From contig JACYXH010000772.1 in NCBI GenBank assembly GCA_026745465.1, positions 7,631,385 to 7,695,384 on the forward strand: a DNA stretch of 64,000 bases, read 5' to 3'. The translations under genes were made by a program, and so were the position numbers. Of the stretch, positions 23,385-28,642 are shown one piece after another. Numbering within the stretch: the first letter of the stretch is position 1; every line of letters begins with the position of its first letter. A model generated the notes under the pieces. The model searched no databases. It was not told the origin of the DNA and was given only the letters and a program-made list of their open reading frames with translations. This stretch comes from Lota lota. Taxonomy: Eukaryota > Chordata > Actinopteri > Gadiformes > Lotidae.

Positions 23385-26300
23385 TGTATTTCCAGATTTT
23401 ATTGTTTTTTGTACACAAAGATCTCAGGGTCTTGATTCCATCGGGAGATGGGAGAAAACCTGCCAGAGAGAACAGGATAATAGGTTAGTGATCCACTGCA
23501 TCCAGACACATTTAAAAACTGTCCATTCAAACCGTACGAAAACTATCCAGATTTGAACATCAACCCTTCTCAGACAAATGCCTCATATGTCTTCAATCGA
23601 GATAAGCCAGTCCACTCTGAGGAACCGAACCAGAACCACAGAACGTGGTCCTGGGCCGGTCGGTCCCAGAACTGGACGGCCCCGTTCAGACTCGTCATCG
23701 TATCATCACTGAAGGTTGAAGCTAAAAACCAGGTTCAGACTTGAAGCAAACTGCTCCGTCAACGATCTTGTTGCATGAGCCAAACAACACATCAACGACC
23801 AACACAGCTCACACATGGACAACTGTTTGATCACTAGTGGTCAGGTTTCCTAAATACCTCCCTCTTTATCCAAAATGACCTGTCTTAATAACGCATTTTC
23901 TTATTGAAGTAGACACTGCCCCACATGTACTCTACAGACTGCACCTTAACCCTTCTATGTGGTGGTGATGGAGACTGTGCCCTACTCTTCTATGTGGTGG
24001 TGGCAGAGACCAAGCCTTACCCTTCTATGCGGTGGGTGGAGGGGCTCCTCCCTGGGGCATGGTGGGGGCCTCAGGCTTGGCTCCCTTCTGCTCTGAGGTG
24101 GGGGTCGTGGGCAGGGGCTCGTCCTTGGGCTCCACGATGCTCACGTGGTCAGGGAGGGGCTTCTTGGGGCCGATCTTACCGCTGGGGTCCCAGGGCAGCA
24201 TGATCTTCACCTTGATGCCCAGCACACCTGAACGCAAAAACAGGTAGATATTAGTCAGTTTATAAACACTGGTAAAACATGCCAGCTGGTCACTGAGGCA
24301 ACTATCCACTCCAGCACCATGTATTGGTGATGATAAATAATAGTCTAGGCACTAGGCTAGTTAAGACCTGTTATTTTAAACTCCTCGTTTGTGTTTTTAC
24401 CCCATGGTGAACCCATTTTGCACAAAAAGCACGTCAGAAATTATGTTAGAATGACATAATTACGCATTACGAGAAGGGTGTCAACCAAGTCAAAAACAAC
24501 CAATTACTAGATTTAGTGGTTTCCAACAGCAGTTAACGAACTCCCAGCACTACCTGGCAAACTCGTGAAAGCCAATTACGGTCAACCACTGAGTTCACAC
24601 ATTTAACTAAATCTTTAGTTTCTACAATCCTTCTCAGACAAATGCCTCATATGTCTTCAATCGAGAAAGACCGTCCGCTCCCAGGAACCGAACCAGAACC
24701 ACAAAACGTGGTCCTGGGCCGGTCAGTCCCAGAGCTGGACGGCCCCGTTCCGACTCGTCATCGTATCATCACTGAAGGGTAATCAATAACTGCCATCGGT
24801 ATGAACTAGTGATTTTTGGCAAGACAAGGATTAAAGTCACAAGTTAGCGAAGAGGTCAGTGACCTACACAGCCCTTCTTCTCAGAGCATTGGTACTGAGC
24901 AAATGCTATCGGAAATCCATGCATTATGGAGGCTTGTACCATTAATTTAGTTTCTTCACACACACAAAAAAGAGCGGGTCAGGGCTTAAAATATGTTTGC
25001 CTGATGGAATTGTTTGGATTCTGGGCTGTTTGTGCACACAAATTGGAGGTTAATGTTATGTAATCATTAAGGTATGATTACATTAATATATAATAGAATG
25101 CATGACCTACACATTAAGCCCAGGCAAGTTAAAGGCAGAGTATAGTTGGTGAGTGAGAGGTAGAGAGGGGTGGCGAGTGCATTATTGAGTACGAGTGTCT
25201 CACCCTGTCTAAGCAGGACGTGGCGGACGGCGGTGTCCACGTAGTAGTTGACTGGGTCTCCGCTGTGGATCATCAGACCGTCCACGAACTTCATGGACTT
25301 GGCCCTCTGACCCCTCAGCTTACCGGACACCACCACCTCACAGCCCTTAGCTCCGCTCTCCATGATGAAACGCAACACACCGTAGCACGCCCTGGAGGGG
25401 GAGAGGCCAATGTTAATAATGTCATGCTTCAGGTCCACCATTCATGGGAAGGATGGATGGTCTGTTTATTAAAGGCAAGATGGATAAATAAACATTACTG
25501 CCATTTACATTAGTTTTTCCCTACCAGACCAGCGAGCAGCTTGAGACTTTGTGATTCCCCTCGTTAAGTTACTTTATATTTCTGTTTTTATATTGAAAGC
25601 GCCTCATCATTAAAATGATTTATTTCTCATTACGATGAAGGTGTCCACCTAGTCAAAACATCCAACTTCTAGTTTTAGTGGTTTCCAACAGCAGGACACA
25701 CATTTAGCTCTCCATCTAGTCTAGACAATCCTTCTCAGACAAATGCCTCATATGTCTTCAATCTAGAAAGACCACCTGCTCTGAGGAACCGGACCAGAAC
25801 CACAAAACGTGGTCCTGGGCCGGTCAGTCCCAGAGCTGGACGGCCCCGTTCCGACTCGTCATCGTATCATCACTGAAGGGTTGTCAATTAGTGCCATCAC
25901 ATTTTAGAATACGGCTACAAGGTATGAACTACTGATCTTTGGCAAGACATGGTTAACCTGTCACTACATCACACACGGTCAGGTAAATACACAGCCCTCA
26001 TGGCCTAGTATTGTTACTTAGCCATGGCTCTTTTAGAAATGAGTACATATCTATGAGGGATGCACGGATTGAGCGTTTGTTTACAAAGAAAGAGGGTTAG
26101 ACATTTCCATACCTACGCACGGCCAGACCTCCCAGCAGCTTGTAGCGCAGAGACTCTGCCTGGGCGATGGCACACAGACCACGGGTCGCCACCTTCTCAG
26201 CGTACAGCTAGAGGAGATGGGGTAGTGATGATTAATACAAGTTGTGGTCCACTCCTGGCATACAGGAAACCCAGCGAGTTAAAAATGTTCATCCGAGATG

Positions 26301-28642: not shown

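Follow-up and report, generated by a model that had tools for sequence, protein, structure and literature searches.

Five U15 (SNORD15) copies in consecutive introns of the Lota lota rps3 gene

The rps3 gene and its intronic snoRNAs

We analyzed a 64,000-nucleotide stretch of contig JACYXH010000772.1 of Lota lota (GCA_026745465.1), referred to here as the window. Its reverse strand carries a gene for ribosomal protein S3, recognized from a splice-consistent coding sequence together with Pfam and PDB matches to S3. The longest of the enumerated splice models encodes a complete protein of 246 amino acids with KH_2 and Ribosomal_S3_C domains (Pfam), and this product matches solved ribosomal protein S3 chains along its length (e.g., 4kzx_D, residues 1-244). 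The seven exons of the gene are separated by six introns, the last of which is a 3′ untranslated region (UTR) intron directly past the stop codon with its donor GT at 24020. Both ends of this intron (24020 and 23460), as well as exon 7 and the 3′ limit of the gene, were read from the sequence by eye. A protein query against the assembly containing the window (575 Mb, 867 contigs) found one rps3 locus, at which five exons matched. The components of the gene are as follows.

23393..28616, reverse strand: rps3 gene
28616-28586 (ATG from 28615), 28209-28079, 26685-26592, 26207-26113, 25391-25204, and 24227-24021, reverse strand: rps3 coding exons
24027-24025, reverse strand: rps3 stop codon
23459 to about 23393, reverse strand: rps3 exon 7, 3′ UTR

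Five copies of SNORD15 (U15; RF00067) lie within this gene, one each in introns 2, 3, 4, 5, and 6 and all in the sense orientation. A preliminary description of this DNA had named the family, its host, its orientation, and its placement in every intron save the first, and the Rfam matches and the splice model agree with it on each of these points.

27612..27760, reverse strand: SNORD15 copy in intron 2; RF00067, 102.9 bits; 318 nt from the 5′ splice site, 926 nt to the 3′ splice site
26358..26505, reverse strand: SNORD15 copy in intron 3; RF00067, 99.9 bits; 86 nt from the 5′ splice site, 150 nt to the 3′ splice site
25730..25878, reverse strand: SNORD15 copy in intron 4; RF00067, 101.1 bits; 234 nt from the 5′ splice site, 338 nt to the 3′ splice site
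24629..24777, reverse strand: SNORD15 copy in intron 5; RF00067, 96.7 bits; 426 nt from the 5′ splice site, 401 nt to the 3′ splice site
23565..23714, reverse strand: SNORD15 copy in intron 6; RF00067, 102.2 bits; 306 nt from the 5′ splice site, about 105 nt to the 3′ splice site

All five copies span the full 146 positions of the RF00067 model (E values of 7e-21 to 3e-19) and score 22 to 28 bits over the Rfam gathering score of 75. SNORD15 was the only RNA family to exceed the Rfam cutoff within the window. In intron 1 (376 bp), neither a U15 match nor a decayed copy was detected at E values up to 5.

The number of copies was the same when the whole genome was searched. With the Rfam model, five U15 matches were obtained, all inside rps3 (48 of 28521 candidates scored), and a DNA search with the intron-5 copy as the query returned the same five (5 of 5 candidates scored). 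Neither search found a sixth copy or a U15 outside rps3 in the genome, though very decayed copies could escape both. Retroposed copies were rejected, as all five genome matches sit in rps3. U18, included as a control for copy number, had no match in this genome and none in the control genomes either. Among viral contigs, neither a 20-nt U15 pattern nor a 26-nt 28S pattern had an exact match.

Boxes, antisense elements, and the 28S target

The C box (TGATGA) near the 5′ end, the D box (CTGA) near the 3′ end, and the closing stem (CUUC/GAAG) are identical in the five copies. The preliminary description had the boxes and the stem as intact and the guide as identical in every copy, and they proved to be so. 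A C′-like box, TGAAGA, is also found in every copy. The D′ box is less uniform: it reads CUGA in one copy, that of intron 6, and CGGA in the other four. In the Rfam consensus, this box includes a weakly conserved u, and the internal boxes of C/D snoRNAs are frequently imperfect, according to a passage of PMC3349704.

Both antisense elements are identical in all five copies. The guide preceding the D box forms a duplex with CAAAUGCCUCGU over 12 positions (11 Watson-Crick pairs and one G-U pair), and the 9-nt element that follows the C box does so with CUCGUCAUC at all 9 positions, so that the two jointly cover an unbroken 16-nt stretch of 28S. The target sequence used for these pairings is the vertebrate rDNA printed in PMC12180492 and not that of Lota lota itself, and the passage in which it is printed does not itself say 28S; the paired part is also found in the 28S primers given in excerpts of one frog study and one horse study. 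By the rule that the target base lies opposite the fifth base from the D box, as stated in a passage of PMC3349704, each copy faces the third A of CAAAU in vertebrate 28S. SNORD15 is tied to 28S-Am3764 in a section of a review (PMC8393311), and the target A identified here would correspond to this human site.

The 9-nt 5′ element more likely aids binding than guides a second methylation. We read it as a binding helper because four copies have a CGGA D′ box while the element itself is unchanged in all five. The identity of both antisense elements in the five copies, together with their pairing with vertebrate 28S, supports the earlier suggestion that the copies have not acquired new targets. 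On the same evidence, a new target or a new snoRNA family was rejected.

Two side observations concern the 28S sequence. The U15 pairing site falls inside an 84-bp rDNA duplex that serves as the R2 retrotransposon target in PMC12180492, an overlap that is probably a coincidence of a very conserved stretch. Separately, a 132-nt 28S query detected 28S-like fragments of 44 to 75 bp at three places in the genome (L006:1501-1575, L007:1501-1549, and L008:1501-1544), none of which had an Rfam match at E values up to 0.001. The L006 piece was the one whose surroundings were read, and these did not look rRNA-like by eye. The fragments may belong to a mobile element that acquired 28S sequence.

Divergence and duplication history of the copies

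In an alignment of the five copies, 20 of 150 columns are variable, distributed over successive parts of the snoRNA as 0/25, 7/70, 13/21, and 0/34. Core identity is 91 to 97% across all ten pairs. The partition with 21 columns was picked after viewing the alignment; when 20 sites were placed at random, none of 20,000 placements gave a 21-column window holding 13, a scan that allows for the place of the window and not for its width. The sequence of this variable stretch differs between all five copies, and the remaining internal part forms a predicted long hairpin. The preliminary description had the loops between the boxes drifting. This holds for about 21 nt, which contain 13 of the 20 variable columns, but not for the rest of the internal part, which is little changed.

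The predicted fold of the whole snoRNA is stable, with minimum free energies of −59 to −70 kcal/mol and z scores of −2.6 to −5.0 (200 mononucleotide shuffles for each copy). Among the 58 predicted pairs, 9 are kept via a one-sided change in some copy, and 8 are disrupted or contain a gap in at least one copy. None of the 58 shows a kept change on both sides among the five copies, leaving a covarying internal hairpin unsupported by covariation.

Sequence flanking the snoRNAs was compared among the U15-bearing introns, with similarity marked when its score was reached by at most 2 of 200 shuffles. Two of the ten intron pairs reached this mark, introns 4 and 5 both upstream and downstream of the snoRNA and introns 2 and 3 on the 5′ side, over 24 nt. 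The other eight were below it, the nearest miss being the upstream comparison of introns 2 and 4 (6 of 200 shuffles). The shared flanks are the following.

25610..25694, reverse strand: flank on the 3′ side of the copy in intron 4; homologous stretch in intron 5 at 24446-24532 (82% over 87 columns)
24446..24532, reverse strand: flank on the 3′ side of the copy in intron 5; homologous stretch in intron 4 at 25610-25694
25921..26022, reverse strand: flank on the 5′ side of the copy in intron 4; homologous stretch in intron 5 at 24798-24900 (local alignment; score reached by 0 of 200 shuffles)
24798..24900, reverse strand: flank on the 5′ side of the copy in intron 5; homologous stretch in intron 4 at 25921-26022
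27761..27784, reverse strand: flank of 24 nt on the 5′ side of the copy in intron 2, identical to intron 3 at 23 of 24 positions
26506..26529, reverse strand: flank of 24 nt on the 5′ side of the copy in intron 3, identical to intron 2 at 23 of 24 positions

Because introns 4 and 5 share flanking sequence on both sides, we treat them as the outcome of one duplication with a built-in yardstick. The 3′ flank of intron 5, used as a query, has two matches genome-wide, in introns 4 and 5. A dispersed repeat behind this flank was rejected, there being no third match in the genome. For the 5′ flanks, the comparison was confined to the window. The 24-nt 5′ flank shared by introns 2 and 3 suggests, at the level of sequence, that these two are also related by duplication. 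The intron-6 copy could not be traced by flank similarity to any other U15-bearing intron. As a separate observation, the shared 24-nt flank of introns 2 and 3 starts with GTAAGT, a consensus-like 5′ splice site (27779-27784 and 26524-26529, reverse strand), and this intronic motif upstream of U15 could conceivably serve as an alternative donor or a decoy.

The flanks of introns 4 and 5 are identical at 191 of 237 positions, with 12 gap openings, whereas the snoRNAs that they enclose are identical at 142 of 149 positions with no gaps (Fisher p 3e-5). Since the flanks were selected for similarity, this contrast is conservative. Outside the 21-column stretch, only 1 of 129 snoRNA positions differs (p 1e-8 versus the flanks). 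Within it, 6 of 20 differ, compared with 46 of 237 in the flanks, and the two are indistinguishable (p 0.25). This pattern supports selection on the boxes, the guide, and most of the hairpin, under which it would be expected. In more general terms, the contrast supports either constraint or homogenization after the duplication. The preliminary description had proposed selection on all five copies. This is supported for introns 4 and 5, in which the flanks have diverged and the snoRNAs have not; for introns 2, 3, and 6 we infer selection from identity alone, the usable neutral comparison being limited to the one pair.

We therefore weighed whether gene conversion between introns, rather than selection on each copy, holds the five alike, with one or two copies mattering and the others swept along. 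The core identity seen in all ten pairs, though eight of them lack flank similarity at the mark, is in keeping with such a process. Some conversion is also possible because snoRNA sites 74 and 87 group intron 2 with intron 4 and so conflict with the 5′ flank, which groups intron 2 with intron 3; the informative sites, however, number only these two. Moreover, the 21-column stretch varies while both of its sides hardly do, a clustering reached by none of the 20,000 placements, and conversion tracts by themselves would not be expected to spare one fixed place. We regard conversion in place of selection as a serious but rather doubtful explanation.

The similarity of the copies might also be taken to mean that the extra ones are recent neutral passengers, too young for decay. 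The flanks of introns 4 and 5 have nevertheless aged, with their 46 differences and 12 gap openings, while the snoRNA between them has hardly changed outside the variable stretch, and we consider neutrality highly improbable. That the copies have split into functionally distinct variants, as the D′ box of the intron-6 copy and the five different variable stretches might hint, is scarcely credible given that both antisense elements are the same in every copy and that the variable stretch of introns 4 and 5 diverges about as their flanks do.

The reading that we prefer is that these are five SNORD15 C/D genes, spread within rps3 by intragenic duplication and kept alike by purifying selection, perhaps with conversion. 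We hold it to be very probably correct.

Expected output and comparison with other vertebrates

In the mechanism that we propose, U15 copies would multiply inside rps3 by intragenic duplication, and each would be transcribed within the rps3 pre-mRNA. The U15 would then be freed from its intron, and its terminal stem would close it into a C/D RNP. In this form it would guide 2′-O-methylation at the third A of CAAAUGCC in 28S rRNA, with the 9-nt element after the C box pairing with the adjoining 28S bases. Purifying selection, perhaps plus gene conversion, would hold the copies alike. The likely effect would be redundancy and more U15 per rps3 transcript, probably in unequal amounts across introns.

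Outer stems can aid a poorly placed snoRNA. Those of the copies in introns 2 to 6 have modeled energies of −18.7, −14.1, −12.7, −6.9, and −17.0 kcal/mol, respectively. Only the copies in intron 6 (about 105 nt) and intron 3 (150 nt) lie near the 3′ splice site, the others being 338, 401, and 926 nt away. In humans, the best spot for a C/D snoRNA is about 70 nt from the 3′ splice site, and most of the C/D snoRNAs of top abundance lie within 100 nt of it, with some farther away, as given in an excerpt of PMC8178906. From splice-site distance and outer-stem energy combined, unequal output is therefore expected, high from introns 6 and 3 and low from intron 5.

A dosage role for the five copies is plausible. 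It is unlikely, in our judgment, that the array as a whole is a selected dosage device, yielding up to five U15 per spliced rps3 pre-mRNA, with each copy maintained and conversion keeping the functional parts uniform. Were this the case, snoRNA output per ribosomal-protein transcript would be raised without extra transcription.

The presence of U15 in multiple introns of RPS3 is already known, and Lota lota adds a high copy number. In Xenopus, rps3 also carries U15 in several introns. Chicken RPS3 has three copies, in introns 4, 5, and 6, for which U15a/b are listed as the counterparts in human (Shao et al. 2009, PMC2653536, in part), and the rarity of multicopy U15 implied by the preliminary description was thus overstated. 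The chicken gene resembles Lota lota rps3 in the family that it carries, in the use of consecutive introns, in an A of 28S as the target, and in the guide before the D box, which in chicken is 10 nt long (same source). The two differ in that chicken RPS3 has three copies, and human two variants, against five copies in Lota lota, where introns 2 and 3 are occupied as well. They also differ in that one further chicken snoRNA for the same 28S A resides in RFWD2, whereas no U15 was found outside rps3 in Lota lota. Duplication in cis into adjacent introns, with purifying selection on the guides, is described in PMC2653536 as well.

Among fish, the literature that we searched gave no U15 copy number. 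Fugu rpS3, like that of Lota lota, is a fish gene with intronic U15, located in "some introns" according to the title of Crosio et al. 1996 (Genome Res 6:1227). SNORD58 (in RPL17) and SNORD12 are human families whose copies likewise share a single host gene; in 59.5% of human C/D families with two or more expressed members, every expressed member is in one host (PMC8178906, in an excerpt). SNORD58 and SNORD12 are other families, however, whose expression has been measured and whose members can switch rank between tissues. C/D copy number falls in placental mammals according to the title of a 2009 paper, a trend disputed in a reply that the citing paper (PMC3349704) prints.

The five-copy rps3 gene leaves the picture of how C/D snoRNAs work unchanged. 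It offers a natural case for the question of why a host gene retains many copies of one guide. The five U15 introns share the same gene, promoter, and guide and differ in position and outer stem, and the array could reveal whether copy number sets or merely buffers the level of 28S methylation.

Ten long open frames elsewhere in the window were also scanned. Nine had no Pfam match, and the remaining one, a 183-aa frame at 16995-17546 on the reverse strand, matches immunoglobulin V-set and Ig domains (Pfam).
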